From the NCBI RefSeq assembly GCF_000813965.1, contig NZ_JWLI01000007.1, positions 186,001 through 250,000 of the forward strand: a stretch of 64,000 nucleotides of DNA, read 5' to 3'. The translations under genes and the position numbers were made by a program. This DNA comes from Leisingera sp. ANG-M7. Its GTDB lineage: Bacteria; Pseudomonadota; Alphaproteobacteria; Rhodobacterales; Rhodobacteraceae. Of the stretch, positions 10,106-53,207 are shown piece after piece (position 1 is the first letter of the stretch; every line of letters begins with the position of its first letter). The notes under the pieces were generated by a model. The model was given only the letters and a program-made list of their open reading frames with translations, was not told the origin of the DNA and did no database searches.

Positions 10106-10478
10106 GCCAAGGCCCCTGCCTTGCCGGTGTGTCTGGTCCGTATCTGCCTGTTTCCATGTTCCGGTTCAACGGAAGTGTTATGGATTGACGGCCCCGCCAA
10201 AATGGCGGAGATGGACGGGCGTATCCGCCCGCGTGCTAAACGTTGTCTCTGCACGGCCCCGCTGCCAGGCGGGAGTCCGGTTCCAAGGGTGCCGGGGAGC
10301 CAAGCCCCGGCGGGTGATCGCGACCGGGAACAAGACTGCCACCGGTGGCTTAAGATCCGGTGAGAGCAGCGTACGCAGGGTGCGCAACACCCGCAGGCGC
10401 GCCTGAATCCAACGCAGCGCAGTGAGTATTTAAGGAAAGATGAAGCGCATCTGTCTTTCATCTTTCCCCAAATACTCA
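10106..10478. repeat. ~370-bp multi-hairpin intergenic repeat, copy A
   Basis: Homologous along its whole length to 52840-53207. Predicted stems in order: CAAGGC-CCCT-GCCTTG (10108-10123); CCGCCA-AAA-TGGCGG (10194-10208); CGGGCG-TATC-CGCCCG (10216-10231); CCCGC-TGCCAG-GCGGG (10258-10273); GCCGGGG / CCCCGGC (10291-10311); a well-conserved unpaired block around 10349-10387; and a long closing hairpin TGAGTATTT-AA-GGAAAGATGAA / TTCATCTTTCC-CC-AAATACTCA (10423-10478). The element fills the gap between convergent genes. No open frame is conserved between the copies. Structured RNA, a mobile non-coding element, or both, are possible. Confidence 0.8.
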
Positions 10479-10499
10479 AAATCCAGCCTCAGCCGGAGT

Positions 10500-10952
10500 T
10501 CACGCCCGCAGGTCCTTGGGCGAGCCCATCACCACATAGGTGGTGATCGCAGTGACATAAGGTGAAGTGCCGAGGATATCGGTGTGGAACTTCTTGTAGC
10601 TGGGCAGATCGGCGCATTCGACCCGCAGCAGATATTCGATTGTGCCAGTGATATTGTGGCACTCCACCACTTCCGGCGCCGCCTGCATGGCGCGCTCAAA
10701 CGCCTCCTGCGCCTCCTTGGTATGCTCGCCCAGGCCGACGCCGATGTAGGTGGCAAAGCCCACGCCCAGTTTTTGCCGGTCCAGCACCGCGCGGTAGCCA
10801 GTGATAACACCTGTGCGCTCCAGTTCCTGCACCCGGCGCAGGCAGGCGGAGGGCGACAGGCCCACCCGCTCTGCCAGTTCCAGATTGCTGATCCGGCCGT
10901 CCCGGCTGAGTTCTTGCAATATCTGCTGGTTTATCTTGTCATTCTTCGCCAT
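10500..10952 (-). CDS. Lrp/AsnC-family transcriptional regulator
   Basis: A 150-residue regulator: N-terminal helix-turn-helix (LSRDGRISNLELAERVGLSPSACLRRVQELE, residues ~16-46) and C-terminal RAM/AsnC ligand domain (GYRAVLDRQKLG onward, ending TTYVVMG). Such proteins sense amino acids and form octamers on DNA. It is divergent from a LysE-type exporter, and the 73-base gap holds two perfect inverted repeats, so control of that exporter and of itself is likely. The ATG at 10952 is chosen; the longer frame would start inside the neighbour's operator. Confidence 0.92.
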   Translation of the reverse strand: MAKNDKINQQILQELSRDGRISNLELAERVGLSPSACLRRVQELERTGVITGYRAVLDRQKLGVGFATYIGVGLGEHTKEAQEAFERAMQAAPEVVECHNITGTIEYLLRVECADLPSYKKFHTDILGTSPYVTAITTYVVMGSPKDLRA

Positions 10953-10982
10953 TAGTTGCGAAAATACGTGCAAGACACGGCA

Positions 10983-11025
10983 GAACGCAATTTCATTTAG
11001 TGCGTTCGGCGCAATGATTTTGCGC
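10983..11025. promoter_or_regulatory. Probable Lrp operators between lrp and lysE genes
   Basis: Two dyads: GAACGCA / TGCGTTC (10983-10989 and 11001-11007, 11-base AT-rich spacer) and GCGCAA-TGATT-TTGCGC (11009-11025), the latter ending on the base before the exporter ATG. Bound protein at the second site would block translation-start-proximal transcription. Confidence 0.6.
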
Positions 11026-11622
11026 ATGACCTACGAACTCCTCACCGCGCTTGCGCTTTTCGCCTTCGTCTCCTCGATCACACCGGGGCCGAACAACCTG
11101 ATGCTCATGGCCTCAGGCGCCAATTTCGGCTTCCGCCGCACCATTCCGCATATGCTGGGGGTGGCGCTAGGGTTCGTGTTCATGGTGCTCTTGGTCGGCG
11201 CCGGGCTGGTGCAGGTGTTTGATGCCTTCCCGGTCAGCTACACGGTGCTGAAAGCAGTGTCGGTTCTCTATCTGCTGTGGCTGGCGTGGAAGATCGCCAA
11301 TGCCGCGCCGGTGCAAGCCAAGGGGACTGAGGGGCGCCCAATGACGTTTCTGCAGGCGGCAGCATTTCAGTGGGTGAACCCCAAGGCCTGGGCGATGGCC
11401 CTAACCGCAATCAGCGCCTACACGCCGGATCAGACGCTGGCGGCCATCCTGCTTGTGGGGGTGATTTTCGGAGCGATCAACCTGCCCTCTGTCGGATCCT
11501 GGACGGTGCTGGGCCAGCAGATGGCGCGGTTCCTGACCAGCCCGCGGCGGCTGGTGCTGTTCAACTGGACCATGGCGGCGCTGCTGGTGGCTTCACTCTA
11601 TCCGGTGATCTGGCCGCAATAA
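11026..11622 (+). CDS. LysE/RhtB-family amino-acid exporter
   Basis: A 198-residue inner-membrane protein of the LysE superfamily, with six hydrophobic segments and the family N-terminal signature SITPGPNNLMLMASGANFGFRRTIPHMLGV (residues ~16-45), plus FQWVNPKAWAMAL in the middle. Members export amino acids such as Lys, Thr, homoserine or Leu; the substrate is not predictable here. Divergent from an Lrp-type regulator, the classical arrangement for substrate-induced export. Start at 11026: the only ATG giving the family N-terminus. No clear Shine-Dalgarno sequence is seen, because the operator occupies that space. Confidence 0.9.
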   Translation: MTYELLTALALFAFVSSITPGPNNLMLMASGANFGFRRTIPHMLGVALGFVFMVLLVGAGLVQVFDAFPVSYTVLKAVSVLYLLWLAWKIANAAPVQAKGTEGRPMTFLQAAAFQWVNPKAWAMALTAISAYTPDQTLAAILLVGVIFGAINLPSVGSWTVLGQQMARFLTSPRRLVLFNWTMAALLVASLYPVIWPQ

Positions 11623-11654
11623 CGCAGGTGCCTCTTCCTGCCCGAAGGGGCGGA

Positions 11655-11705
11655 GCGCCCGCCCCCGCGCGAGAGGGCGGGCGCTGCCCGGCCTTCCGGC
11701 CGGGC
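11655..11705. terminator. Double hairpin between convergent genes
   Basis: GCGCCCGCCC / GGGCGGGCGC (11655-11664 and 11675-11684) followed by GCCCGGCC-TTCC-GGCCGGGC (11686-11705). Both stems are perfect. They end 6 bases from the AraC-type gene stop, so they serve both directions. Confidence 0.65.
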
Positions 11706-11711
11706 GGTACA

Positions 11712-12545
11712 TCATTTCAGGGGCAGGCAGATCTCAGTCAGAAGATCCTCCGGCGCGGTGTCGCGGGGATTGTTGAGATAGACCTCATAGCAGGGCTGAT
11801 CCGCAGGCTCCTCCCCCGATGCGGGCAGCCAGTTGCCGAACAGGCTGTGATAGGCGGCGTGGATGCCGGAATACGGGCCCTTGTAGGTCAGCACCGCGGC
11901 CCGGCCGCCGGGCAGGCTCACCTCCTCCATGCCGTCAGGCAGTGCATCGCCGTTGAACTCTGCGCCGGCGAAGCTGCGCAGGTCGGCTTCTGCCACTTCA
12001 TCCGGGCTGTCGAAATAGACGCCAAGCACCGCGCCCAGCTGCGGCCACAGCTGGCGGCTCTCGCAGATCGCCCCGAGGGCTTCAAAGCTCTTGCCGATCT
12101 CGTGGTAGGCGCCCTTGTGCGGCAGGCCGGCAAGGCGGCGGGCGGGGTCGGTTCGGGTGATCACGTCATACATGGGATAGCTTCCTGTTCTGAGGGCTGG
12201 GTTGGGCAGCCGCACCTGGCCGTCTCGGCGGAAGGCCGCCGGGCTGCTGCCATAGGACTCAGAGAACGCGCGGGAGAAGCTGTTCTGGTTCGGATAGCCA
12301 GCGCGGGCGGCCACCTGTGCGATGGGCATCTTGTCCATCACCAGCCAGACCGCGGCGCGGTGCAGCCGGATCCGGCGCACGGCCTGGGCGCAGGTCTCAC
12401 CGGTCAGGGCGCGAAACACCCGGTGCCAGTGGAACCGCGACATCGCCGCCACATCCGCGAGCCGGTCCAGCGACAGGTCGCCATCGGTGTTATCGTGGAT
12501 GTAGGCCAGAACGCGCAGGATCCGGTCTTCGTAGCTGGCAGCCAT
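11712..12545 (-). CDS. AraC-family regulator with GyrI-like domain
   Basis: A 277-residue two-domain regulator in the order of E. coli Rob. The N-terminal AraC helix-turn-helix pair covers residues ~8-105 (LDRLADVAAMSRFHWHRVFRA and AARAGYPNQNSFSRAFSESYGSSPAAFR). The C-terminal GyrI/BacA-like effector domain covers ~120-277, with KGAYHEIGKSFEAL and YEVYLNNPRDTAPEDLLTEICLPLK, the usual domain ending. The GyrI-like part binds small hydrophobic ligands in known members. Alone in its unit; target genes are not evident. Confidence 0.9.
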   Translation of the reverse strand: MAASYEDRILRVLAYIHDNTDGDLSLDRLADVAAMSRFHWHRVFRALTGETCAQAVRRIRLHRAAVWLVMDKMPIAQVAARAGYPNQNSFSRAFSESYGSSPAAFRRDGQVRLPNPALRTGSYPMYDVITRTDPARRLAGLPHKGAYHEIGKSFEALGAICESRQLWPQLGAVLGVYFDSPDEVAEADLRSFAGAEFNGDALPDGMEEVSLPGGRAAVLTYKGPYSGIHAAYHSLFGNWLPASGEEPADQPCYEVYLNNPRDTAPEDLLTEICLPLK

Positions 12546-12671
12546 TGGCGGCGTCTCCTTCGTGTCTCTCTGCCCTCAGGTGATGGCATAAGCCTAGATC
12601 ACAAATCTTGCTGAGTTGCATCTTGGCGCCGCTAAGGCCATATAGCTGCAAACCTGCAGAGCAGAGGCAAC

Positions 12672-13634
12672 ATGACCCAGTATCTGGAATTCGAAAAACC
12701 GCTGGCTGAAATCGAAGGCAAGGCGGAGGAACTGCGGGCGCTGGCGCGCGCGAATGAGGAAATGGACGTGGCGGATGAGGCCAAGGCGCTGGACGCCAAG
12801 GCGGAGCAGCTGCTGAAGGACCTCTACAAGAATCTGACGCCCTGGCGGAAATGCCAGGTGGCGCGCCATCCGGAACGTCCGCACTGCAAGGATTACATCG
12901 AGGCGCTGTTCACCGAGTACACGCCGCTGGCCGGCGACCGGAACTTTGCCGATGACCTGGCGGTGATGGGCGGGTTGGCGCGCTTCAACGACCAGCCGGT
13001 GGTGGTGATCGGCCACGAGAAGGGCAGCGACACCAAATCGCGCATCGAGCGCAACTTCGGCATGGCGCGCCCCGAAGGCTACCGCAAGGCGATCCGGCTG
13101 ATGGAAATGGCCAGCCGTTTCAAACTGCCAGTGATCACCCTCGTCGACACTGCCGGCGCCTACCCCGGTAAAGGTGCCGAGGAACGCGGCCAGTCCGAGG
13201 CGATTGCGCGCTCGACCGAGATGTGCCTGAAGATCGGCGTGCCGCTGATTTCGGTGATCATCGGCGAAGGCGGTTCTGGCGGCGCAGTGGCCTTTGCCAC
13301 GGCGAACCGCGTGGCGATGCTGGAGCATTCGATCTATTCGGTGATTTCCCCCGAGGGCTGTGCCTCGATCCTGTGGAAGGATGCCGAGAAGATGCGCGAA
13401 GCCGCTGAAGCGCTGCGCCTGACTGCGCAGGACCTGAACAAGCTGGGCGTCAACGACCGGATCATCCCGGAACCGCTGGGCGGCGCCCACCGCGATCCGA
13501 AGGCTGCGATCAAGTCCGTCAGCGGCGCCATCCAAGAGATGCTGGACGAACTGAAGGACATGGACGCCGCTGCGCTGGTCAAGGACCGGCGTCAGAAGTT
13601 TCTGGATATCGGTTCCAAAGGGCTGGCGGCATAA
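12672..13634 (+). CDS. accA: Acetyl-CoA carboxylase carboxyltransferase subunit alpha
   Basis: A 320-residue AccA, the alpha half of the biotin-dependent carboxyltransferase that makes malonyl-CoA for fatty-acid synthesis. The N-terminus [24 protein letters not shown] and the crotonase-fold signatures [24 protein letters not shown] and [12 protein letters not shown] are typical, and the length matches the family (~320). Monocistronic, with a strong terminator after it. Start: first ATG, preceded by GCAGAGGCAAC. Confidence 0.97.
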
Positions 13635-13657
13635 GCGCCAGTATCCAAGAAGATCAG

Positions 13658-13686
13658 AAAACCCGGCTGTGATGCCGGGTTTTTTG
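13658..13686 (+). terminator. accA terminator
   Basis: AAAACCCGGC-TGTGAT-GCCGGGTTTTTT, a canonical stem with T run, 23 bases after the accA stop. Confidence 0.92.
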
Positions 13687-13735
13687 ATTCCGGGCATTCA
13701 CCTGGTTCATTTCGGAACGTTCACTGGCGGAGGTA

Positions 13736-13948
13736 ATGATGCCTGAATGCACCGAGCGTCCGCACATTGTCTGCATCTTTGCAATAGCTGTCCTCAGCGT
13801 TTTCTTCTTGGAGGTGCAGCCCGCCTTCTCAAGCAAGCTGGGGCAGGTGAAGCTTTCGCGCTGCCTCCCTGCCCGTTTCAATATGCCGATGGCGCCAGCT
13901 GCCCGTCATCGTGGAAGAGCCAGAAAAACCCTGCTTCTGGCGGTCTAG
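13736..13948 (+). CDS. Doubtful 70-aa frame ending at the IS boundary
   Basis: A frame with a good ribosome site (GGAGGTAATG) and a hydrophobic start, MMPECTERPHIVCIFAIAVL, that becomes basic and unconvincing and stops at 13948, five bases before the left end of the IS remnant. It may be the front of a small membrane or exported protein cut off by the insertion, or chance. No family recognised. Confidence 0.25.
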   Translation: MMPECTERPHIVCIFAIAVLSVFFLEVQPAFSSKLGQVKLSRCLPARFNMPMAPAARHRGRARKTLLLAV

Positions 13949-13957
13949 GTTCAGGAT

Positions 13958-14748
13958 TCATAACCAGAAAATTACTAACGCCGCGAGGGCGATTGCTGAC
14001 AGGAAGACTTTCGGGCACCAGTCGTAGCAAGTTGCGACACGCCTTCAGTCCTTGAGCCTGCCAAACATGATCTCGATACGGTTGCGCCGCTAATATCGGC
14101 GCTTGTCGTTTCTGATAGCTTTCTTGCGCTGCTTTCGACCGGGGATGCAGGCGCGTATCCCTTTGTCGTTCAACGTTTCTCTGAACCAATCCGCATCTCA
14201 CCCGCGATCCCCGAGAAGCCAACCGACTTTTGGCAAGCTGCTTGGCAGCGCCCGCGTGGCGATGTAATCGCTGACCTGCCCGGCGGTCACGAACAGGTTC
14301 AATGGACGCCTCTGCCTGTCGCATATGGCATGCAACTTCGTGTTCATGCCCCCTTTGGTCCGACCGATAAGGCGTCCACGCCCCTTTTTTTCACGCCCAT
14401 GCTTGTCGCTGTTCGATGGGCCTTCAGAAAAGTTGCGTCCACTGCCCGGCAGTTGATTGCGCAGCAATCAATGAGAGGGGATCATCACAGTCTTCTCTTC
14501 GCTGTGACTGGAGGCCAGCCCGACCATCATTCGAGCAAAGATGCCTTTCTCGCTACAGCGCTTCCACCGGCTGTAAAGCGTCTTGTGCGGACCGTATTCA
14601 GAAGGCGCATCGCGCCAGCGCAAGCCATTGCGATTGATAAAGATAATCCCGCTCAGAACGCGCCGGTCATCGACGCGAGGTTTGCCGTGGGACCTGGGGA
14701 AGAAGGGTTCAAGACGCGCCATCTGCGCATCGCTCAGCCAGAAAATAG
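13958..14748 (-). pseudogene. IS5-type transposase pseudogene
   Basis: Reading down the minus strand, the first part (FWLSDAQMARLEPFFP... to EEKTVMI) is the N-terminal DDE-transposase frame. After a 40-base insertion, DATFLKAHRTATSMGVKK resumes, then by frameshift GRGRLIGRTKGGMNTKLHAI and PLNLFVTAGQVSDYIATRAL. The remaining conserved stretch is broken by three in-frame stops, at the Tyr of GDRG-Y-DADW, the Lys of KRRY-K-RRN and the Trp of GRLKD-W-RR. No start codon is left in front of FWLSD. The catalytic acidic residues are spread over these broken parts, so no active enzyme can be made. Confidence 0.85.
14440..14479. other. 40-base insertion in the transposase pseudogene
   Basis: Removing exactly these 40 bases joins codons ATG ATC to GAC GCA ACT and restores the family reading MIDATFLKAHRTA. 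The insert contains two adjacent dyads: CTGCC-C-GGCAG (14442-14452) and TTGATTGC-GCA-GCAATCAA (14453-14471). Its origin is unknown. Confidence 0.5.
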
Positions 14749-14759
14749 CTCTGAATCCT

Positions 14760-15213
14760 ACGGCAGATCGGAAATCAATGCATCCTGACACCAGGTTCCA
14801 GTGCAATGCGGTTTGTAGACACTTGGCAAGGCGCATTTTTGAGGCCGTATGAGATCAGAGGCGCAGTGCTCCGTTTCGCTGAAGATTGCCGTCCGCATTC
14901 GCATGCGTGCGTTTGGGCGGATAAATTCAGCGCTTGACCCGCGGAGGGTTTTTCTCCGCTGCCCGGCGCATTCGGTTGTCTTGACGGTGCCGCACGATCC
15001 AGAACAGCATGCCCGCCCCACCGTCGGCCTGGCTTGCAGCCTGAACACGAACTGGATTTGCGGCGGGTGAATTCACTGGCGCAAAGTTACGATCAAGCAG
15101 GAAGCATGACTGCTCCGGTTTAGCACGCAAATCGCGTGCAGTTCTGCAAAAGCTCCGGGAAGCAGGCCGAAATTCCATGTTTTGCAGGAGCAGGAAGAAA
15201 ATTGAAAAAACGC
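14760..15213. other. Gene-poor stretch before tRNA-Ser
   Basis: About 450 bases between the IS remnant and the tRNA promoter. Open frames exist on the minus strand (for example 14927-15238, 103 codons) but show no recognisable family or convincing start, and base composition is lower in GC than the neighbours. Probably decayed accessory DNA left beside the tRNA. Confidence 0.4.
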
Positions 15214-15241
15214 CTTGTCTCTCTAGGTTGCGGCACATATA
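15214..15241 (+). promoter_or_regulatory. Promoter of tRNA-Ser
   Basis: CTTGTC (15214-15219), 16 bases, CATATA (15236-15241), a fair match to the alphaproteobacterial sigma-70 pattern, 9 bases before the mature tRNA 5' end. Confidence 0.6.
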
Positions 15242-15250
15242 CGGGTCAGC

Positions 15251-15340
15251 GGAGACGTGGCCGAGTGGTCGAAGGCGCTCCCCTGCTAAGGGAGTAGGCG
15301 GGAAACCGTCTCGTGGGTTCGAATCCCATCGTCTCCGCCA
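15251..15340 (+). tRNA. tRNA-Ser (anticodon GCU)
   Basis: A 90-base class II tRNA. The acceptor stem GGAGACG pairs with CGTCTCC and CCA is encoded at 15338-15340. The anticodon loop CTGCTAA shows GCT at 15285-15287, reading AGC/AGU serine codons. The long variable arm of tRNA-Ser and the T loop GGTTCGAATCC are present. An IS remnant lies just upstream; no integrase is seen on either side. Confidence 0.97.
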
Positions 15341-15639
15341 TCACAAATTTTTACTCTACCTTATCAATTGTTTACTTGGGATCATGGCAAACCCATTAGA
15401 GAGGTTCGCCGTGAACACCAGCTGCCTTCTTCTTCCGAGTCATCTTCTGCAACGCCCTTCCCTTCACCGGACATCGCTTATCCGCGGGGCCTGAAAGAAT
15501 TCGGTTTGGCCAGGGGTGCTCACACTGCAGGTACGACCCTTCCAAGTATTGCCTTACCCTAGGCGCATGACCGCCTAACCTCACAGAACCTCACCGGCCG
15601 CCGCTTGAAGGTCCGGCGGTCTTCCATATAACCCGCGCC

Positions 15640-16263
15640 ATGGCTGCAAAAATATTTTCAATGGAGGCGCGGGAGACCGGCGGTGCCCGGCTTACGCTCA
15701 ACTACAAGCACGCCGACCGCAGCGGCATCCAGCGTATTTCCTGCGATCTGCCGCAAGCCGGCCTATTGCAACTGGTCCTCTTTGCGGAAGCGCTCAGCCT
15801 GCGCAAGCGCTTCGGAAATCCCATTGCATCGAACGTGTCGCTCGATGGGCTTGAGATGTCCTATGACCCGGCGCAGCGGAAGCTCCAAGTCGAGCGGCAG
15901 GCCGGTTATTCCAGGCAGATAGCATGCATTCCGGTTGAGGTTTTTCTCTCTGAGATGGCAGGCATGACCGACATCTGCATTGCCTGGGCCGAGGCATCAA
16001 AGAATGGGCCTGCGCTGAAGCGCCTGCTGGCCGGCTGCACGGCTCCGGCTGAGCTTGCAGTGCTGCTGGGGCAGGACGAGGCTGACCTGGCCATGCATCA
16101 GCTGCGGGAAATGGCCGTGCTGCTGCTGGCGCAGGAAACCTCTGCCCGTGGTTCTGCGCTTGCCCGAAAATTGCGCGGAAAGAAATCTCAGGACCAAGCG
16201 CGAGAGGCTGTCAGCGGCCTTGTACTGGAGCTTGCTGCTGAACTCGTTCCAATTTCCGCCTAA
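15640..16263 (+). CDS. Hypothetical 207-aa protein
   Basis: I do not recognise this protein. It is soluble, with a mixed composition: a beta-rich first half (ARLTLNYKHADRSGIQRISCDL, RKLQVERQAGYSRQIACIPVEVF) and a helical second half (ALKRLLAGCTAPAELAVLLGQDEADLAMHQLREMAVLLL). There is no signal peptide or membrane segment. An internal ATG at 15661 (MEARETGG) is an alternative start; neither has a clear ribosome site. The ~300 bases between it and the tRNA show no gene. Codon use looks coding throughout. Confidence 0.6.
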   Translation: MAAKIFSMEARETGGARLTLNYKHADRSGIQRISCDLPQAGLLQLVLFAEALSLRKRFGNPIASNVSLDGLEMSYDPAQRKLQVERQAGYSRQIACIPVEVFLSEMAGMTDICIAWAEASKNGPALKRLLAGCTAPAELAVLLGQDEADLAMHQLREMAVLLLAQETSARGSALARKLRGKKSQDQAREAVSGLVLELAAELVPISA

Positions 16264-16322
16264 GCCAGAACAGGCGGGTGCTGCGAGGGACGGAGTAAGG
16301 GGCGGCACCCTGCCCGCATACC

Positions 16323-16344
16323 GGCCGCACCTACCGGTGCGGCC
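16323..16344. terminator. Hairpin between convergent genes
   Basis: Perfect GGCCGCACC-TACC-GGTGCGGCC stem in the gap between the 207-aa gene and the convergent symporter gene. No T run on either side, so termination is plausible but not certain. Confidence 0.5.
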
Positions 16345-16364
16345 GCAGTGATGTGCTTGAAATG

Positions 16365-17663
16365 TTACGCCCGTGAAACGCCGGGGGTTTTCAGCACATG
16401 GGGAGTGTCATACGCCTCCAGATCAATTTGATCTTCAGACTTCGCAATCAGCACCGTGCAGGCTGCGTCGCCCGTGACATTGAGCGCGGTGCGCGCCATG
16501 TCGAGAATGCGATCAATGCCTGCAATGATGGCAACACCTTCCAGAGGCAGACCGACGGAGGTCAGAACCAGCGACAGCATGACCAGCCCGGCTCCGGGAA
16601 CACCTGCGGTGCCGATGGAGGCAAGCGTCGATGTCAGAATGATTGTGGCGTATTCCGCCATGCCCAGTTCCATTCCAAAGGCCTGCGCCACAAAAAGAGC
16701 AGCAACACCCTGGTACATTGCGGTGCCGTCCATGTTGATCGTCGCGCCAAGCGGCAGCGTGAAGCTTGCAACTGACCGGTTAACACCAAGGTTCTGCTGC
16801 ACGGCAGTCATTGTAACAGGAAGTGTTCCCGAGGAGGATGTGCTGGTGAAGGCCACGATCTGCGGTTCAATGATGCCCTGGAAGAAGCGGACCGGGTTCA
16901 AGCGCGCAAAGACCGAAACGAGACCGCCGTAAACGATCAGCGCGTGCAGGAAGCAGCCGATATAGAGCGCAGCGATGACGGTGCCCAGAGGCAGCAGAAG
17001 ATCAAGCCCGTAGGTTCCGGCGACCCAGGCCATCAGCGCAAACACGCCGTAGGGGGCGAAACTGATCACAATCTCCGTCAGCTTTAGAACAACTGAATTC
17101 AGGGCTTCAAAGAACTCCCGCACCGGCTTGCCTGCTTCGCCAACCAGGTTGATGGCTAGACCGAACATGATTGCGAAAAAGATGATCTGCAGAACGTTTC
17201 CGTCTGCGGCGGCGGCAACCGGATTCTTCGGGACAATCCCGATGAGCTGCTGAATGAAGGGCGGTGAGGTTTTGGGTTCCATGGCGGCGGCGGCGCTCAA
17301 ATCGATGCCCGCACCGGGTTGCATCAGCAACCCCAAAGTCAGGCCGATCGTAATCGCAAATGCGGTGGTGCCCAGATAGAAAACGATCGATTTCAAGCCA
17401 ATGCGCCCCATGCGCGCCATGTCGCTGACGGATGTCATGCCGCATACGAGCGACACGAAGATCAGCGGGACAATCAGCATTTTGATAAGTGACAGGAACA
17501 AGGTCCCGATGTTCTTGATCATGCCGGCAATTGCCTGGTTGCCGGTCGCGTTCAGCAGAACGCCTGTAATCACTCCAAGTACAAGTGCGATTACGATTTG
17601 CTTCCACAGAAGCATGTTTCTCCAAGGTGCCAAAAACCCTGTTTTTTGACTGGTATTCGCCAT
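16365..17663 (-). CDS. Dicarboxylate/amino acid:cation symporter (DAACS family)
   Basis: A 432-residue secondary transporter of the GltP/DctA/GltPh fold. The diagnostic parts are present: the serine-rich re-entrant hairpin SSSGTLPVT, NMDGTAMYQG in helix 7 and DRILDMARTALNVTGD in helix 8, which bind the acidic amino acid or dicarboxylate and the cations. The ATG at 17663 follows GGGAGGTCCTC. It is the third unit of a cluster with an Asp/Glu racemase and aspartase, which points to aspartate or glutamate (either enantiomer) as substrate. Its leader carries the cluster's palindrome 95 bases upstream of the start. Whether it takes D-Asp is inference. Confidence 0.92.
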   Translation of the reverse strand: MANTSQKTGFLAPWRNMLLWKQIVIALVLGVITGVLLNATGNQAIAGMIKNIGTLFLSLIKMLIVPLIFVSLVCGMTSVSDMARMGRIGLKSIVFYLGTTAFAITIGLTLGLLMQPGAGIDLSAAAAMEPKTSPPFIQQLIGIVPKNPVAAAADGNVLQIIFFAIMFGLAINLVGEAGKPVREFFEALNSVVLKLTEIVISFAPYGVFALMAWVAGTYGLDLLLPLGTVIAALYIGCFLHALIVYGGLVSVFARLNPVRFFQGIIEPQIVAFTSTSSSGTLPVTMTAVQQNLGVNRSVASFTLPLGATINMDGTAMYQGVAALFVAQAFGMELGMAEYATIILTSTLASIGTAGVPGAGLVMLSLVLTSVGLPLEGVAIIAGIDRILDMARTALNVTGDAACTVLIAKSEDQIDLEAYDTPHVLKTPGVSRA

Positions 17664-17757
17664 GAGGACCTCCCTTTCCATGGCAGCCGAACGGATCAAG
17701 CTGCCGGCAGTCGCAGCATGGTACCAGTTCGGTGACGGGCAGCGTCGCGCAAACATG

Positions 17758-17790
17758 GAAAGGGCGTTGCAAACTTTGCAACGCCCTTTC
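17758..17790. promoter_or_regulatory. 33-bp palindrome with GTTGCAAA-C-TTTGCAAC core
   Basis: A perfect palindrome with 16-base arms around one C: left arm GAAAGGGCGTTGCAAA, right arm its exact complement. The inner 17 bases equal the site at 20770-20786 and nearly equal that at 22701-22717. TGCAAACTTTGCA fits the T-N11-A pattern of LysR binding sites. It lies between the racemase stop and the symporter start. Confidence 0.75.
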
Positions 17791-17798
17791 AGCCTCCA

Positions 17799-21723: not shown

Positions 21724-21738
21724 GGGCTACAGCAGAGT

Positions 21739-44232: not shown

Positions 44233-44260
44233 CAAAACCGTTGCCCGATGGGCGCAGGTC

Positions 44261-45050: not shown

Positions 45051-46793
45051 TTAGATCGACTTCAGGTACTCCAGCAGCGCCTTTTTGTCCGCCTCAGGCA
45101 GGCTGGTGCCGTAGTCGTGGCCGCAGCGGCTGTTGCCCGAATCAAGCTGATCGCAGCCCGTGGTCTCGATCACGTGGCCAAAGGCGGTCTGTTCTGCCGC
45201 CATACCCACTGCCTCGATATCGTAGTTCGGGCCGGGCTTGAACGACGCCGGCCTGTCAGCAGGCGCGGTCAGCAGGTCGCGCAGCGTCGGTACCGAGCCG
45301 TTGTGCAGATAAGGCGCAGCAGCCCAGATCCCGTCCAGCACCCGGGCCTCGTATTTGCAGCCTGGCTCCGCCGCGGATTTCAGCAACCCCGCGTTGTCGC
45401 CCGTCGGGAAGGCCTTGCGCAGATCGTCAAACTGCGACAGCGCCTGGCGGTCGTCGGCGTTGCCCGGCGTTGCCTCTGCTGCCTTGGCGGTCTTGACGAA
45501 ATCCTCGCCAACGGCTCCCAGCGAATGCTGCACGATGGCGCCGATCACCGACACAGCCAGCACATCGAACGCCTTTGCCTCCGCGCCCAATGTGGTGCCG
45601 GTCAGCGGGATCGACGCACCGTCCAGCACGCCGGTCTTGACCATACGGGTCAGCACCCCGCATTCCCGCGTGTCGGTGCCCGCATCCAGGATCGGCGTTT
45701 CCCATGTGGTGTGGAAGATCGAGCGGAACTTGCCCTTCTTCTTGCCGTGACAGGACACACAGCCGCCCTCTGCCGCGGTTCGGTTGAACACCGCCTCGCC
45801 CTGCACCGCCAGGCCTTGGTCCAGCTCCCACGGCCATTGCGGCGCGCCAATATCCCAGATCCATTCCTCCAGCTCTTTCAGCCCGTCCCAATTGGCGGAG
45901 TTCTGCGAGACGTAGTCGCGGTTGAACAGCAGCCCGGACTGCGGCTGCGGGCGGAAGTCGGCAAAGACGCCATAAACCTCGCCCAGGTTGCGCGACAGCC
46001 CCAGCAGGTCGTTGCCATTGGCCGAGAACCCCGGCCATTGGGTGAAGTCCTGCCGCGCCGCGTTCCACAGGAACGGGTAGCGGGTGGGGGCATCGGCCAC
46101 GGCAATATTTTCCGGAATCAGATAATCATCGGAGGCTTCGCCGATATCCAGCCCCGCCAGACGGTTGAAGATCATCGACACCGCGTCCAGCCGCGCTGGT
46201 CCCCAGGCCGGGTCCGGCAGCGAACGGTCGATCAGTGTGTGGAAACGGTTGCTCCAGACCTCCACCTCTGCCTTCAACGCGCTGCGTTCAGACACCGAAG
46301 CGCTGCTTCCCAGCACCTTGTCCGCAAAACCGTCAAAAGCATCAGCATCCGCCAGAACCGCCAGCACCGCATCGTCCAGATCCTTCAGGAAGCTCTGAAA
46401 ATCGACAATGCCGGGGCCGCCGTCGATCCTGTAGGCGGTGCCGCTGACCTCAATCTGGCGGGTGTGGCAGGCGGAACAGGTCATCCCCACCGCCATATCC
46501 GCGCCGCTGCCATTGGTGGTGAAACCCGCAGGCAGATCCGCCTCCTGCCGCCCGGCCATTGGCAAATAGCCATAACGCGCCAGCGCATCATGCAGAAACG
46601 CCTCGCCATCCGGCAGGGTCAGCGCCCGCATCCAGGCAATCGGCATGATCCGCGCGCCCTGATCCTGAGTGTAGAACTGCTGGCGTAGGCTGGGTGTCCA
46701 GTCGCTGCCCTGATTGACATAAACCGTCTGCGCCGCCGCCGGCGCCGCCATCGCTGCCGCACCAATTGCGCAGGTTGCTAAAAACGTCCGCAT
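45051..46793 (-). CDS. Secreted di-haem cytochrome c peroxidase-like protein
   Basis: A 580-residue exported protein, signal peptide [22 protein letters not shown]. Two haem c sites: CSACH (106-110) and CVSCH (345-349). The first lies in a domain unlike MauG/CcpA; the second is followed by [21 protein letters not shown], the di-haem peroxidase C-terminal signature. The total length (~600) and the opening [33 protein letters not shown] match a family labelled di-haem cytochrome c peroxidase, whose activity is poorly known. It stands alone; no maturation or donor genes are adjacent. Confidence 0.82.
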
Positions 46794-46891
46794 CAAAACC
46801 TCCCGATGCCAAATCAAACAACTCAAAGCTGCGCGCATACGGGAGGCTTGGACAGCAAAAACTCCGTTCGATTGTCGTTATTGCGCTGGCT

Positions 46892-48058
46892 TCACGCTTG
46901 CCAGCGGCCGCCGAAGTCCTCCGGGATCAGCAGGTTATGGCGCCCCAGTCCCTCGACTGAGCGTTCGCCGCACAGCGCCATGGTGGTGTCCAGTTCCTTT
47001 TGGATCACTTCCAGCGCTGCAGTCACGCCCTTCTGCCCCATGGCACCCAGACCATAGACAAAGGCGCGCCCAATCATAGTGCCCTTGGCCCCCAGCGCCA
47101 GCGCCTTCAGCACGTCCTGGCCGGAGCGGATGCCGCTGTCCAGATGCACTTCGACATCACTGCCGACGGCATCCATGATTTCCGGCAGCATCCGGATGGA
47201 ACTCAGCGCGCCATCCAGCTGCCGCCCGCCGTGGTTGGAAACCACGATGGCATCAGCGCCCAGTTTTGCAGCCATTTTCGCGTCCTCGGCGTCCAGGATC
47301 CCCTTCAGGATCACCTTGCCGCCCCACATCTCCATCAGCTTTTCAACCTTGCCCCAGTCCAGAGCAGGGTCGAACTGCTCCGCCGTCCAGGCGCCCAACT
47401 GCGAGGTGTCGGAGACACCGTGCACATGACCTACGATGTTGCCGAAGTTGCGCCGCTTGGCGCCCAGCATCTGTAGGCCCCAGGTCCATTTGGTCATCAG
47501 GTTGGCGATGGTGGCCGGTGTCAGTTTCGGCGGGGCGGACAACCCGTTCTTCAGATCCTTGTGGCGCTGGCCCAGGATCTGCAGGTCCAGCGTAATCACA
47601 AGTGCCGAGCACTTGGCATCCTTGGCGCGTTGGATCAGGCGGCGGATATAGTCCTCGTCCTTCATGGTATAAAGCTGGAACCAGAAAGGTTTGGTAGTCG
47701 CCTCCGCCACCTCCTCGATCGAGTTGATCGACATGGTGGAGAGCGTGAACGCCACCCCGAACTCTTCCGCTGCGCGCGCCGCTTTGATCTCGCCATCGGC
47801 GTGCTGCATGCCCGTCAGCCCCACCGGTGCCAGTGCCACCGGCATCGCCACGTCCTGGCCGATCATCCGGGTTGCCGTGGTGCGTCCGGTCATATCCACC
47901 GCCACCCGCTGGCGCAGGCGAATCTGCTCAAAGTCTGAGGTGTTCTCGCGGAAGGTCTGCTCAGTCCAGCTGCCGCTTTCGGCGTAGTCATAGAACATCC
48001 GCGGCACACGGCGTTCATAGATGCGCTTCAGGTCGTTGATATTGGTGATCACCGGCAC
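46892..48058 (-). CDS. lldD: FMN-dependent L-lactate dehydrogenase
   Basis: A 388-residue alpha-hydroxy-acid oxidase family enzyme. The catalytic signature VSNHGGRQLDGALSSI (His is the base; Arg binds substrate) and FYDYAESGSWTEQTFREN near the N-terminus are present. Length and ending (RSVEGLGRHNLLIPEDFGGRW) fit LldD, which feeds lactate electrons to the quinone pool; glycolate or mandelate activity cannot be excluded. GTG start at 48058 with GGGAGAG 8 bases upstream; an in-frame ATG at 48079 would overlap that site. Downstream of trpA but separated by a terminator. Confidence 0.88.
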   Translation of the reverse strand: MPVITNINDLKRIYERRVPRMFYDYAESGSWTEQTFRENTSDFEQIRLRQRVAVDMTGRTTATRMIGQDVAMPVALAPVGLTGMQHADGEIKAARAAEEFGVAFTLSTMSINSIEEVAEATTKPFWFQLYTMKDEDYIRRLIQRAKDAKCSALVITLDLQILGQRHKDLKNGLSAPPKLTPATIANLMTKWTWGLQMLGAKRRNFGNIVGHVHGVSDTSQLGAWTAEQFDPALDWGKVEKLMEMWGGKVILKGILDAEDAKMAAKLGADAIVVSNHGGRQLDGALSSIRMLPEIMDAVGSDVEVHLDSGIRSGQDVLKALALGAKGTMIGRAFVYGLGAMGQKGVTAALEVIQKELDTTMALCGERSVEGLGRHNLLIPEDFGGRWQA

Positions 48059-48146
48059 TGGATTCTCTCCCGATCTCATTTGGTAAAGTTTCTTTACCAA
48101 TTCAAGCCAGCAAAAGCAACGCCCCGTTTGCCGCACCCTTTGAAAC

Positions 48147-48175
48147 GCAAAAACCGCGCCCGAAGGCGCGGTTTT
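48147..48175 (-). terminator. trpA terminator
   Basis: AAAACCGCGCC-CGAA-GGCGCGGTTTT (plus-strand reading). The stem and flanking A/T runs give a terminator 24 bases after the trpA stop on the minus strand. Confidence 0.9.
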
Positions 48176-48198
48176 CAAACCTGATTTGGGAACGAGCC

Positions 48199-48990
48199 TC
48201 AGCCCTTGTGGGCGCCGTCCGCCAGGGACTTCACAAACGCCAGCACCTCTGCCGGGGACTTGCCTGCGCCGATCTGGCTAACGATGGCACTGCCCACCAC
48301 CGCGCCATCAGAGATCGAGGCGATGTTCTGCGCCTTTTCCGGCGTGTTGATGCCAAAGCCCACGATGATTGGCAGATCGGTCGCGGCCTTGATGCGGGCA
48401 ACCTCGGGGCCCACATCGCCGGCCTCGGCCTCAGCCGCGCCGGTGATGCCGGTGATCGAGACATAATAGACAAAGCCCGACGTGTTCTGCAGCACCTTGG
48501 GCAGGCGCGCGTCGTCGGTGGTGGGGGTCGCCAGGCGGATGAAATTCAGCCCCGCCTTTTGCGCGGGGATGCACAGCTCGTCATCTTCTTCCGGCGGCAG
48601 GTCCACCACGATCAGCCCGTCGATGCCGGCAGCCTTGGCATCCTCCAGGAATTTCTCCACGCCGCGGTTGTAGATCGGGTTGTAGTAGCCCATCAGCACG
48701 ATCGGGGTGGTGTCGTCGTCTTTGCGGAAATCGGCTGCCAGCTGCAGCGTCTTTTCCAGCGTCATGCCGCCGTCGAGCGCCCGCTGGCCCGCCAGCTGGA
48801 TGGTCGGTCCGTCCGCCATCGGATCGGTGAACGGCAGGCCCAGCTCGATAATGTCGACACCGGCGCCCGGCAGCCCCTTCACCACCTCCAGCGAGGTGTC
48901 GTAATCAGGGTCGCCCGCCATCACATAGGTGACAAAGGCTTTCTTGCCGACGGCATTCAGTTCGGCGAATTTGGCATCGATACGGGTCAT
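48199..48990 (-). CDS. trpA: Tryptophan synthase alpha subunit
   Basis: A 263-residue TIM-barrel enzyme that splits indole-3-glycerol phosphate and passes indole to TrpB. Catalytic Glu is in [22 protein letters not shown] and Asp in [27 protein letters not shown] and [11 protein letters not shown] are the phosphate-loop regions. Separated from trpB by ychF, a PagL-like gene and DUF2237, as in other Rhodobacteraceae with trpF-trpB and trpA apart. Confidence 0.97.
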
Positions 48991-49074
48991 GGGCGGGCCT
49001 TTTGAAATCTGTCCGCCCCGGTGTGCCGAATGTTGCGAGGGAAATCAATCCCGCGCGAGGTCCGGCGGCCCGGC

Positions 49075-49572
49075 TCAGCTGCCCAGCGGAATATGCCAGC
49101 GCAGGGTCAGCGAGTTCACGCCTGGGTTTTCATCCGCGGTGGAGGCGTTGGACTTGTGGCTGATGGCCAGCGACACGGCCTTGCCGTTCTGGAACCGCTT
49201 GCCCACCGCCAGCAGGCTGCGGATCTCGAAGGCGGACCCCAGATCGTTCTCCGGCGAGCTTTCGTGATAGGCGCCGGGCATGACGCTGGTTTCGATGAAC
49301 CAGTTGTTGTTCAGGTCGATCAGGCCGCTGATGCCGATACCGGCAAAAACATCACCGGTCTCCACCACCTGCAAAGTGCCGCCAAAGCGCGCCGACATAC
49401 GCCCCTTTTCGTAAAACGGCGTGTGCAGGTATTCGGCAGCAAAAAGGGCGCCGTTTTCCGCGGTCTCCCGGTGGTAATCGGAATACCCCAGCCCCAGTGT
49501 CACTTCCTGCGCCGCAGCGGGTGCCGCCATGGCTGCCGAAACCGCAGCCGCCAGCAGAGTTGTCTTTTTCAT
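49075..49572 (-). CDS. Acyloxyacyl hydrolase / PagL-like outer-membrane protein
   Basis: A 165-residue exported protein, signal peptide [22 protein letters not shown], with amphipathic beta segments (LGLGYSDYHRETAENGALFAAEYLHTPFY) ending WHIPL, as in small beta barrels. SLAISHKSNASTADENPGVNSL matches the PagL motif (His-x-Ser-Asn, with Asn-Pro-Gly-hydrophobic-Asn). PagL removes the 3-O-acyl chain of lipid A. The Glu of the active triad is not identified with certainty. The ATG at 49572 is chosen as the only one giving a signal peptide. Divergent from ychF. Confidence 0.75.
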   Translation of the reverse strand: MKKTTLLAAAVSAAMAAPAAAQEVTLGLGYSDYHRETAENGALFAAEYLHTPFYEKGRMSARFGGTLQVVETGDVFAGIGISGLIDLNNNWFIETSVMPGAYHESSPENDLGSAFEIRSLLAVGKRFQNGKAVSLAISHKSNASTADENPGVNSLTLRWHIPLGS

Positions 49573-49792
49573 TTCCAGCCCCTCGGAAAATAATGACTTT
49601 TGGCCAAGCTTTTTCAGGAGTCTTCTAAAACTCCCTAAACATTTGCCAAGGGGCTTATGGAAAATCAGTGTGCATACTGTCTGTGAAGCGGCACACAGTT
49701 CGCAACTGTGGCAGTTCTGCCAGACAGACTTGGCTTGCGCGGGCGTGCAATGCTGCCTAGAAGCAGCTCCCAAATGGCATCAGGAGGCCGCA

Positions 49793-50890
49793 ATGGGCTT
49801 TAAAATGGGAATCGTCGGCCTGCCCAACGTGGGTAAATCGACGCTGTTCAACGCACTGACCAAAACCGCCTCGGCGCAGGCGGCCAACTTTCCGTTCTGC
49901 ACCATCGAACCCAACGTGGGTGAAGTCGGTGTGCCGGACGCACGGCTGGACAAGCTGGCGGCGATTGCCGGCTCCAAGCAGATCATCCCGACACGGATGA
50001 CCTTCGTCGACATCGCAGGCCTGGTTAAGGGCGCCTCCAAGGGCGAAGGTCTGGGCAACCAGTTCCTGGCCAACATCCGCGAAACCGATGCGATTGCCCA
50101 TGTGCTGCGCTGCTTTGAAGACGGCGACGTGACCCATGTGGACGGCCGCGTCGATCCGGTGACCGACGCCGAGGTGATCGAGACCGAGCTGATGCTGGCC
50201 GACCTCGAAAGCATCGAGAAGCGCCGTGCCAACCTGGTGCGCAAGCTGAAGGGCAACGACAAGGAAGCCCAGCAGCAGGACCGCCTTCTGGCCGCTGCGC
50301 AGGCGATGCTGGAAGACGGCAAGCCTGCCCGCCTGGTCGAGGTTGATGCCGAAGACGCCAAGGCCTGGAAGATGCTGCAGCTGCTGACAACCAAGCCGGT
50401 GCTTTACGTTTGCAACGTGGGTGAGTCGGAATCGGTCGAGGGCAACGCCCACTCCGCCAAGGTCGCCGAAATGGCTGCTGCACAAGGCAACTCCCATGTG
50501 ATCATCTCTGCCCAGATCGAGGAAGAGATCAGCCAGCTGGAAGCCGAAGAAGCCCAGATGTTCCTGGAGGAAATGGGTCTGGAAGAAGCCGGGCTCGACC
50601 GTCTGATCCGCGCGGGCTACGAACTGCTGCACCTAGAAACATACTTTACCGTCGGCCCCAAAGAAGCACGCGCCTGGACAATCCGCACCGGCACCGCGGC
50701 ACCGCAGGCGGCGGGCGTCATCCACGGCGACTTTGAGAAGGGCTTCATCCGGGCCGAAACCATCGCCTATGACGATTTTATCGCCTGCAATGGCGAACAG
50801 GGTGCCAAGGAAGCCGGCAAGATGCGGGCCGAAGGCAAGAGCTATGTCGTCAAGGACGGCGACGTGCTGCATTTCCTGTTCAACACCTGA
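49793..50890 (+). CDS. ychF: Redox-regulated ATPase/GTPase YchF (OLA1)
   Basis: A 365-residue Obg-family P-loop protein with ATP preference. G1 [15 protein letters not shown]3 [20 protein letters not shown], the noncanonical G4 region (VCNVGES) and the C-terminal TGS domain ([42 protein letters not shown]) are all present. YchF binds ribosomes and is regulated by redox; the common neighbour pth is 7 kb away. AGGAGG 8 bases before the ATG at 49793 sets the start. Confidence 0.97.
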
Positions 50891-50914
50891 TCCGTTTTTC
50901 AGGTGAGTTTTCAG

Positions 50915-50941
50915 CCGCCCGCCAGCCCCGCTGGCGGGCGG
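50915..50941 (+). terminator. ychF terminator
   Basis: CCGCCCGCCAG / CTGGCGGGCGG with a 5-base C-rich loop, then TTTGCGTTT. 25 bases after the ychF stop. Confidence 0.75.
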
Positions 50942-51039
50942 TTTGCGTTTGACATCTCCGCCCCTGGCACCGGAAATACCGGGACGCACCGTGCAATCGC
51001 ACTACTCTTACAGGGGCACGCAGGAAGGGCAGGCCTTCG

Positions 51040-51417
51040 ATGGACAAAGACGACAGCATCAACGTATTGGGCGGCCCGCTTGCGCTCTGCTCCAATGGCC
51101 CGGTGACCGGGTTCTTCCGCGACGGCCATTGCAACACCTGCGCCGAGGATCAGGGCAGCCACACTGTCTGCGTGGTCACCACGGCAGAGTTCCTGGCGTT
51201 CTCAAAATACGTTGGCAACGACCTGTCGACACCGCGCCCCGAGTTCAGCTTTACGGGCCTTCAGCCCGGCGACCGCTGGTGCCTGTGCGCCGCCCGCTTT
51301 CTGCAAGCCGCGGATGAAGGCTGCGCGCCCAAGGTCCTGCTGGAGGCGACCCACATGCGGGCACTGGACATCGTGCCGCTGAGCGTGCTGCAAAGCTATG
51401 CCGCCGACCCGGCCTAA
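51040..51417 (+). CDS. DUF2237 family protein
   Basis: A 125-residue cytoplasmic protein of the DUF2237 family. The conserved pattern is complete: NVLGGPLALCSNGPVTGFFRDGHCNTC, GSHTVCVVTTAEFLAFSKYVGNDLSTPRPEFSF and GDRWCLCAARFLQA, with several invariant Cys/His residues that could bind metal. No function is established to my knowledge. Alone between ychF and the convergent trpB. Confidence 0.9.
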   Translation: MDKDDSINVLGGPLALCSNGPVTGFFRDGHCNTCAEDQGSHTVCVVTTAEFLAFSKYVGNDLSTPRPEFSFTGLQPGDRWCLCAARFLQAADEGCAPKVLLEATHMRALDIVPLSVLQSYAADPA

Positions 51418-51443
51418 TCAGCCGCGATGCGCATGAAGAAATG

Positions 51444-51466
51444 AAAAAGGCGCCCCGCGGGGCGCC
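51444..51466 (-). terminator. trpB terminator
   Basis: Perfect GGCGCCCC-GC-GGGGCGCC stem; on the minus strand it is followed by TTTTT. 25 bases after the trpB stop. On the plus strand it may also serve DUF2237. Confidence 0.88.
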
Positions 51467-51491
51467 TGTTCTGTTGCAGCATTGTCCGAAC

Positions 51492-52751
51492 TTACTCCTC
51501 GAAGGTGCGGCCCTCTTCGGTGTCGGACATGTCAAAGCCCAGGTGCTTGGCGACCGTAAACACGTCCTTGTCGCCGCGGCCGCACATGTTCATCACGATG
51601 ATGTGGCCCTTGGGCAGCTCCGGCGCGATCTTCATCACATGGGCCAGCGCGTGGGAAGGCTCCAGCGCCGGGATGATGCCCTCGGTGCGGCAGCTGACCT
51701 GGAAGGCTTCCAGCGCTTCCTTGTCGGTGATCGACACATACTGGGCGCGCCCCGTGTCGTGCAGCCAGGAATGCTCCGGCCCGATGCCGGGATAGTCGAG
51801 ACCAGCTGAGATCGAGAAGCCTTCCTGGATCTGGCCATCCTCATCCTGCAGCAGGTATGTGCGGTTGCCGTGCAGCACGCCGGGGCGGCCGCCGGTCAGC
51901 GACGCGCAATGCTGCATCCGGTCATCAACACCCTTGCCGCCGGCCTCGACGCCGATGATGCTGACGGAAGCATCATCCAGGAACGGGTAGAACAACCCGA
52001 TGGCGTTGGAGCCGCCGCCGATTGCGGCAATCACGGTGTCCGGCAGGCGGCCTTCGCCTTCTTGCTCAGCCAGCTGCCAGCGGACTTCCTTGCCGATGAC
52101 CGACTGGAAATCGCGCACCATTGCCGGATAGGGGTGCGGACCGGCCGCGGTGCCGATGCAATAGAAGGTGTCGCGCACGTTGGTCACCCAGTCGCGCAGC
52201 GCGTCGTTCATTGCGTCCTTCAGGGTGCCGCGGCCCGATGTCACCGGGATCACCTCAGCACCCAGGAGGCGCATGCGGAACACGTTGGGCGCCTGCCGCT
52301 TCACGTCGTGCGCGCCCATGTAGACGATGCACTTGAGCCCGAACTTGGCGCAGACGGTGGCGGTGGCCACCCCGTGCTGCCCGGCGCCGGTTTCGGCGAT
52401 GATGCGGGTCTTGCCCATGCGCCGCGCCAGCAGGATCTGGCCCAGCACGTTGTTCACCTTATGCGCGCCGGTGTGATTAAGCTCGTCGCGCTTCATATAG
52501 ATCTTGGCGCCGCCCAGTTCCGCCGTCAGGCGCTCCGCAAAATAGAGCGGGCTGGGCCGGCCGACATAGTGTTTCCACAGGTCTTCCATCTCGGCCCAGA
52601 AGGAGGGGTCGTCCTTGGCTTTGTTATATTCTTCCTCAAGGCTCAGGATCAGCGGCATCAGGGTTTCAGATACGAAACGCCCGCCAAAGATGCCAAAGCG
52701 GCCCTGTTCGTCCGGACCGTTCATGAAGCTGTTGAAAAGATCGTCGGCCAT
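51492..52751 (-). CDS. trpB: Tryptophan synthase beta subunit
   Basis: A 419-residue PLP enzyme joining indole and serine. The PLP lysine is in [15 protein letters not shown]; the glycine-rich phosphate site is [10 protein letters not shown] and the gate motif [14 protein letters not shown]. TrpB1 type with the N-terminal [17 protein letters not shown]. The ATG at 52751 (GGGAAGAACC upstream) is chosen; the longer frame runs into the repeat. trpF lies upstream on the same strand, but the ~370-bp repeat separates them. Confidence 0.97.
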
Positions 52752-52839
52752 GGTTCTTCCCTCACTTTCGCAGCGCCCGCCATGACTATAGCGCGCCAGC
52801 GCCTTGGTAAAGGGAGATTGCGCAAGCGGCTGCATCCGG

Positions 52840-53207
52840 CCAGGGCCCCTGCCCTGCCGGTATGCTGCTGGTTTCTGCTGTGATCTGCCTGTCAAAAGGC
52901 CGGAAGGTTAAGGATGGCGGCGCCGCCAAGCGGCGGAGGCGGGACGGGAGGGTTGCTCCCCCACGCGAAACGTCGTCTGTGCGTGCCCCTGCCAAAGGGC
53001 CCTGTTCCAATGTGCCGGGGGTGTCAGGCCCGGCAGTGACCGCGATCAATTGGGACTTTGCCGCACGCCGCTTAAGATCCCGTGAGACCAGCGTACGCAG
53101 GGTGCGCAACTCCCTGGGCGCCGCGTGTGCCGCTGATGCCGCGCAGTGAGTATTTTTGGAAAGATGAAGGTGCAGGCCCGGTGTTTTCATCTTTCCCCAA
53201 ATACTCA
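52840..53207. repeat. ~370-bp multi-hairpin intergenic repeat, copy B
   Basis: Partner of copy A (10106-10478). Stems in the same order: CAGGGC-CCCT-GCCCTG (52841-52856); CCGCC-AAGC-GGCGG (52923-52936); GGGAG-GGTTG-CTCCC (52946-52960); GCCC / GGGC (52985-53000); GCCGGG / CCCGGC (53014-53034); conserved block around 53071-53110; closing hairpin TGAGTATTT-TT-GGAAAGATGAA / TTCATCTTTCC-CC-AAATACTCA (53147-53207). It lies between trpF and trpB, closing hairpin next to the trpF stop, just as copy A lies next to the Lrp gene stop. Confidence 0.8.

Follow-up and report, generated by a model that had tools for sequence, protein, structure and literature searches.

Gene transfer agents (GTAs), particles resembling viruses, shuttle DNA from cell to cell. 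Some of the most abundant marine bacteria exchange genes through them, and the targets of the GTA activator beyond particle and lysis genes are known only in part. As far as the excerpts of the published work go, GafA activates the GTA promoter and a lysis promoter of Rhodobacter capsulatus (PMC6363796), its C-terminal part binds a GTA promoter fragment containing the -35, the -10 and the start (PMC9638019), and it is described as a conserved protein of Rhodobacteraceae (PMC6473078). Caulobacter GafZ, which is similar to the GafA C-terminus, requires and binds a palindrome between -35 and -10; it is an anti-terminator, GafA was suggested as a possible one too, and GafA sites have yet to be located at nucleotide resolution (PMC11150451, same limit). 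Here we analysed a repeated intergenic element found as copies A and B in a 64,000-nucleotide stretch of Leisingera sp. ANG-M7 (contig NZ_JWLI01000007.1, positions 186,001 to 250,000; called the window). The joint reading that we consider likely is that the element represents a new multi-copy family of small structured RNAs of marine Roseobacter bacteria, encoded by minus-strand genes, which would belong to the GafA-controlled GTA programme and serve it as accessory RNAs in trans.

Base pairing of the repeated element

The two window copies were homologous over their full length (71% identity, E 3.1e-31). Copy A adjoins the stop of a minus-strand gene, of Lrp type (ends at 10500), as the initial annotation had stated, and copy B sits between minus-strand trpF (ends at 53253) and trpB. 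A chance likeness was excluded: covariance model R2 gave 4-7 matches in every one of 21 genomes of the genus Leisingera, 115 in total. The annotation had also pointed to two compensatory changes, both of which are seen in the sequence (stem 1, 10110 A/10121 T in copy A and 52843 G/52854 C in copy B; second pair, 10220 C/10227 G in copy A and 52949 A/52957 T in copy B). Its inference that such changes reflect selection on pairing was upheld by the covariation controls described here.

The structure consists of 36 pairs in H2, P, H3, H4, H5, H6 and H9; it was drawn up manually and then improved with the help of models R1 and R2. Alignments A4-A9 had been adjusted to this structure, a bias in its favour, and a structure-blind alignment was used as a check. 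Among 98 copies, 93.5% of the cells were paired, compared with 30-55% for slid structures. Both-sided changes occurred in 29 of the 36 pairs, giving 310 doubly changed cells against a shuffled mean of 73 (reached in 0/500 shuffles). Mapping on the tree identified 73 double changes from one Watson-Crick pair to another, versus 1-2 in each of four slid controls. Against a null evolved on the tree, nine of the 36 pairs were significant (E<0.05), all in H3, H4, H5, H6 and H9, and 27 fell short; when all column pairs were considered, the 3 significant ones all belonged to the structure. Any double change was found in two pairs of H2 and five of P, none of them significant. The structure-blind alignment retained 86% paired cells (28-50% slid) and 218 doubly changed cells (33-84 slid); pairs with any double change numbered merely 25 versus 14-20. 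At the rplO site alone (16 copies, two genera), 10 pairs carried double changes, with 42 cells against 14 (0/500), and the number of pair types was no higher than in shuffles.

Collectively, compensatory changes, as expected of a structured RNA, stood above the controls, and the base pairing is under selection. A non-coding RNA family, one of the three readings initially offered, is well supported by these tests. No reading frame is shared, in line with the first description: the lengths of 154 cores span all three mod-3 classes and each of the six frames is interrupted by a stop in 64-109 of them, so that a coding gene with a common open frame finds no support. Two structural candidates were also discarded. 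The columns of a closing stem joining the core 5' end to H9 varied without partners, and RNAalifold run on the first MAFFT alignment returned a poor structure, which was replaced.

Strand and ends of the predicted RNA

Covariation is blind to strand. The RNA had been drawn on the plus strand; the wobble changes, the pair probabilities and a T-rich tract following the GGCGGCGCCGCC hairpin agree on the opposite one, and the RNA is therefore probably encoded on the minus strand. Read on the plus strand, the tree held 72 changes from Watson-Crick to A.C (G.U on the minus strand) versus 36 to G.U, whereas slid controls gave 93 and 92. The consensus pairs were more probable on the minus strand in 70 of 98 copies (0.33 vs 0.25 on plus; p 4e-8). 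The 8 nt that directly follow H2 on the minus strand held 3.58 T, compared with 0.72-1.79 in five later windows (71 non-redundant copies). H2 itself, the GGCGGCGCCGCC-type hairpin, formed a perfect palindrome of at least 12 nt in 128 of 154 copies.

An RNA on the plus strand would draw on a slightly lower folding energy after correction for composition, the residual of 0.93 kcal/mol favouring plus in 37 of 60 copies (p 0.003). Mean folding z-scores (-0.78 on plus, -0.56 on minus, 60 copies) did not single out an RNA, the window copies folded with z of -0.83 and -0.07, cell counts were nearly equal on plus (G.U 146, A.C 133), and P and H9 had low pair probabilities whichever strand was folded (minus: 0.08 and 0.01). 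Set against the wobble ratio, the pair probabilities, the T-rich tract and the fixed-distance block described below, all of which point to minus, we regard the plus-strand alternative as very unlikely. Uncorrected folding energy, better on plus in 121 of 127 cores, was rejected as an argument: shuffles differed nearly as much (-7.5 of -8.4 kcal/mol), so that the effect is mostly composition. An A/T-rich box before H2 was likewise rejected as a plus-strand -10 (TA-type triplet in 83% of 71 copies, 13-24% elsewhere); it has no -35 and suits the minus-strand T-tract after H2 better.

Upstream of the core on the minus strand, the block GTTGC-N7-SCGYRCGS-N5-TNAC was recognised in 123 of 154 copies when up to 2 mismatches were tolerated, always 61-62 nt from the core edge, and in 0.8% of 4000 control windows. 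It was present in 91/92 Leisingera copies and 32/62 others. The block was first derived from 55 non-redundant RNA copies, and RNA copies were its sole source. It looks like a -35 element, a 17-nt spacer holding the palindrome GCGYRCGC, and an unusual -10, and would function as a promoter. Zero-mismatch blocks occurred in the window at the two copies only; two matches would be no unusual chance outcome at a tolerance of 2 mismatches. The source genome carried the block at 28 places (at most 1 mismatch) versus 3 for the reversed pattern, and six of the 28 were RNA copies. We propose an RNA gene of about 170-200 nt on the minus strand, made of the block, a short leader, H9, H6, a cloverleaf (P around H5, H4 and H3), and H2 with its T-rich tract, which would act as an intrinsic terminator. 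The features of both copies are as follows.

10360..10388, minus: copy A promoter-like block GTTGC-N7-GCGTACGC-N5-TCAC; pattern match with 0 mismatches, putative promoter
10387-10382 and 10364-10359, minus: copy A probable -35 and probable -10, within the block
10176..10352, minus: copy A predicted RNA, ~175 nt; start placed by the block and end by the terminator-like hairpin
10183..10326, minus: copy A conserved core (136 positions modelled); model R2, 99.5 bits, E 5.1e-12
10315..10326, minus: copy A hairpin H9, GATCGCGATC type; from pair counts, low pair probability in single sequences
10291..10311, minus: copy A hairpin H6 (GCCGGGG...CCCCGGC); from pair counts
10207..10284, minus: copy A stem P, a cloverleaf around H5 (10258-10273), H4 (10232-10255) and H3 (10216-10231); from covariation and pair counts
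10186..10199, minus: copy A hairpin H2, terminator-like; palindrome and T-tract imperfect here
10106..10127, strand unassigned: copy A hairpin or dyad H1 (stem 1 above), past H2 on minus
10423..10478, strand unassigned: copy A H8, GAGTATTT/GGAAAGATGAA inverted repeat, separate module that may terminate the Lrp-type gene
53082..53110, minus: copy B promoter-like block, 0 mismatches; probable -35 53109-53104, probable -10 53086-53081
52903..53075, minus: copy B predicted RNA, ~170 nt, between trpF and trpB; both ends putative
52912..53048, minus: copy B conserved core; model R2, 131.3 bits, E 6.8e-17
53037..53048, minus: copy B hairpin H9 (TGACCGCGATCA; one mismatch); from pair counts
53014..53034, minus: copy B hairpin H6; from pair counts
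52935..53008, minus: copy B stem P around H5 (52986-52999), H4 (52962-52985) and H3 (52945-52961); from covariation and pair counts
52907..52928, minus: copy B hairpin H2 (TGGCGGCGCCGCCA, 52915-52928) with T-rich tract, terminator-like
52836..52860, strand unassigned: copy B hairpin or dyad H1
53148..53207, strand unassigned: copy B H8 inverted repeat, separate module

Two hairpins initially assigned to the element thus fall outside the predicted RNA. H1 is located past the probable terminator. The long GAGTATTT hairpin is common to both copies, as described, and is not part of the RNA: because its half-site occurs alone at 27 places in the genome (0 for the reversed pattern), it represents a separate module. 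The half-sites, GAGTATTT-N-GGAAAGATGA, occur singly or as an inverted pair, with window examples at 5807-5826, 10424-10478 and 53148-53207. In some copies H8 is replaced by a second sequence class (GCAAAGAAGAAG...), pairing being retained.

Probable link to gene transfer agents, and chromosomal sites

In the source genome, the block was found twice in one cluster (L299), before its first gene and before the portal gene. The cluster genes match phage portal, HK97 capsid, Rcc01695-family distal tail protein, phage/GTA baseplate hub and NlpC families; the first gene is presumed to be the small terminase and the next one the large terminase. The block also precedes a GH108/peptidoglycan-binding (endolysin-type) gene and a DUF2793 gene, which we take to be of GTA lysis and tail-fibre types. 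A promoter element common to the GTA cluster, the GH108 and DUF2793 genes and all six RNA copies was thus found, as expected of one regulon, and its palindrome occupies the position between -35 and -10 at which the GafZ element lies. Because the identical block type stands in the GTA cluster and before two GTA-like genes, the RNAs probably belong to the GTA regulon and would be activated by GafA, which may switch them on alongside particle production. In another genus, the block again precedes a portal gene (L331).

Six further RNA-like units were found behind the block, four of them near-identical (L274-L277) and two others (L271, L283). The consensus of the four with three relatives from other genomes (L305, L309, L317) is a predicted cloverleaf in which GGAG/CUCC closes three hairpins. 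These units end in GGCGGCGCCGCC and a T-rich tract. Separately, the leader of the first GTA-cluster gene (L292) holds a GC-rich hairpin followed by TGTCTTTCTCTC between block and start codon; this arrangement is terminator-like and would fit anti-termination by GafA.

Several observations weigh against the joint reading. Three or more mismatches to the block were counted in 30 of the 62 copies from other genera, the -10 part of the block is unlike TATAAT, a sigma-70 scan placed no promoter in either window copy, and H2 was not listed by a terminator scan. Neither the first cluster gene nor the next one had a family match. Genes with no known GTA link are also preceded by the block (oligopeptidase-, carboxyltransferase-, BrnA antitoxin- and DUF6614-type). 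When 30 other-genus loci were checked by tblastn, a GTA portal was recognised at L331 alone and a glycosyltransferase at a second locus, which leaves the link with little behind it outside the source genome. Detection was patchy: a second model under strict filters matched 10/394 genomes of the family and 9/393 genera. A class-wide sample of 142 genomes searched in the same way gave the source genome alone; these filters left 8-23 scored candidates per genome, and absences in these many-genome searches mean little.

The family could be real and yet lie outside GafA control if several programmes, such as stationary phase or another sigma factor, used the block as their promoter type and GTA genes were just some of its members. 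Indeed, no GTA link is known for roughly half of the non-RNA genes that the block precedes, and GafA sites are unmapped at nucleotide level in the parts of the source at hand (PMC11150451). Against this version stand the two blocks inside the GTA cluster, those ahead of the endolysin- and DUF2793-type genes, and a palindrome placed like the GafZ element; we consider it rather unlikely. A glycosyltransferase-type gene was likewise seen behind the block; sites of this sort are L272, L273, L278, L284, L285 and L295, some perhaps due to chance.

BLAST and the covariance model identified six copies in the source genome, the two window copies and four others. Of the 115 genus matches, a few weak ones (E 1e-5 to 1e-3) corresponded to a longer-stem variant. 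Its core measures about 155-174 nt, and it was seen in several genomes of the genus (G017:C1:1415655, G004:C8:308745, G003:C1:3572632 and others) and in another genus (L168, L169, L171). The core motif was also found in named records, with Leisingera, Phaeobacter, Tritonibacter, Zongyanglinia, Parasedimentitalea and Epibacterium among those found (62 stretches); all 20 of the 62 on which the covariance model was run matched, one incompletely. In one other genus, 7/7 genomes matched. A record titled Nocardioides marinus DP1N28-1 (JAHVJD01; L177, L187, L202, L220, L228) has elements at Leisingera sites, and its title looks wrong.

Among the BLAST matches listed, 94 loci fell by their flanks into seven site groups, with 5 loci mixed: argH/lysA (21), trpF/trpB (19), racemase/Lrp (17), glcD-type (12), rplO (8), HD-type/regA (8) and globin (4). 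Where a site gene had no family match, its name is a reading of the translation. Two related small hypothetical proteins (MGLKKAMG..., MSIKHLAG...) adjoin copies at the glcD-type and globin sites (L049, L006, L073). In other genera, 14 of 38 fetched loci shared one flank with a Leisingera site (5 glcD-type, 7 rplO, 1 racemase/Lrp, 1 Lrp). Core identity between orthologues was 0.84-0.94 per site, compared with flanking intergenic values down to 0.24-0.6 in places. Concerted evolution was indicated for 6 of 17 site pairs (p<0.05). The argH/lysA, trp and glcD copies evolve in concert (0/2000 permutations for each of the three site pairs), and the racemase/Lrp and rplO copies mostly do not.

The copies must once have spread. 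An old non-autonomous repeat (ERIC-like or similar to a miniature inverted-repeat transposable element) that spread and was then fixed, its pairing being a relic of movement, would account for the dispersal, the palindromes, the concerted evolution and sites that are mostly conserved in the genus and partly different between genera. A mobile element, another of the initial readings, is nevertheless disfavoured, and we hold it to be highly improbable: sites are common to many species and to some other genera, compensatory changes continue at a single site, a promoter-like block and a terminator-like end are fixed, and plasmid and phage records gave no match at the search sensitivity applied, on which ground a plasmid or phage origin was also rejected.

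On the minus strand the unit trails a co-directional gene in 6 of 7 groups, the argH/lysA unit being opposed to both neighbours. The third initial reading, a processed 3' element, is compatible with this placement; the conserved promoter-like block that the unit itself carries speaks for a separate gene instead. The main functional rival is a cis-acting leader transcribed from a GafA promoter, which would render RNA polymerase resistant to termination in the manner of put RNA or EAR and thereby let transcription run on into the neighbouring gene while the GTA is on. Such a leader would place the RNA at the transcript start with a terminator-like hairpin directly after it, as predicted here; GafZ is an anti-terminator and GafA maybe one too (PMC11150451, in the part available), and the leader of the first GTA gene likewise has a GC-rich hairpin and a U-rich tail. 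The next gene on the minus strand is co-directional at 4 of 7 sites (trpB, rplO, two hypothetical) and opposed at 3 (racemase, HD-type, argH), and the downstream genes have no common function. The co-directional downstream gene expected of a riboswitch or put/EAR-type leader is thus missing in 3 of the 7 groups, and we find the cis explanation as a whole doubtful. Action in trans is most likely, given that the sites have nothing in common, that the unit is variously oriented towards its downstream neighbour, and that concerted evolution links the argH/lysA, trp and glcD copies. Several near-identical copies would provide a high dose, and gene conversion may keep them alike.

The phage RNAs pRNA, ROOL and GOLLD form dimers or larger assemblies. 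By analogy, and as a tentative and rather improbable extension, the GTA might possess its own set of cloverleaf RNAs, with at least 12 genes per genome (six of the family and six related units) that the GTA activator switches on and whose products act on the assembly of particles, the packaging of DNA or lysis; through their self-complementary GGCGGCGCCGCC-type hairpin these products could then form dimers or larger assemblies.

Comparison with known systems

Rfam 15 gave one match at gathering threshold in the whole window, a tRNA elsewhere, and for the two copies at E up to 10 sub-threshold microRNA and snoRNA matches only, mostly on H8. No RNA of this kind was described in the openly accessible literature searched, and the portion of a Ruegeria small RNA paper that was available (PMC4809877) contained no recognisable counterpart in its text. 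Because it is absent from Rfam and from this literature, the family is apparently undescribed. A multi-copy RNA family outside Rfam thereby gains a covariance model, sites and a probable strand. Its units also carry a warning for genome annotation, being located within the trp operon and the rplO (ribosomal-protein) region. If the joint reading is true, an RNA layer would be added to the GTA programme, together with a testable sequence for the GafA site.

By description, GOLLD, ROOL and phi29 pRNA are likewise structured RNAs that belong to a lytic or packaging programme of phage type, a likeness that depends on the GTA link being real; they are known as single-copy genes inside phage genomes, in contrast to the dispersed chromosomal copies found here. 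The GTA regulon of R. capsulatus and Caulobacter shares with the present set a block at the GTA cluster and at an endolysin-type gene, with a GafZ-like palindrome, but the targets named in the excerpts of its literature are protein-coding, and no RNA target was met there (PMC6363796, PMC9638019, PMC11150451). UpsM of Rhodobacter sphaeroides is also a structured RNA conserved in Rhodobacteraceae, and an abundant one; it differs in forming the leader ahead of mraZ in the dcw cluster, at one locus, as far as the accessible text goes (PMC5089854). None of the sites found here lies before mraZ.

Repeats of the ERIC and BOX type are similar in being 100-400 bp long, dispersed, palindromic and present several times per genome. 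They differ from the family described here, which has few copies, conserved sites, and a promoter-like block and a terminator-like end of its own.

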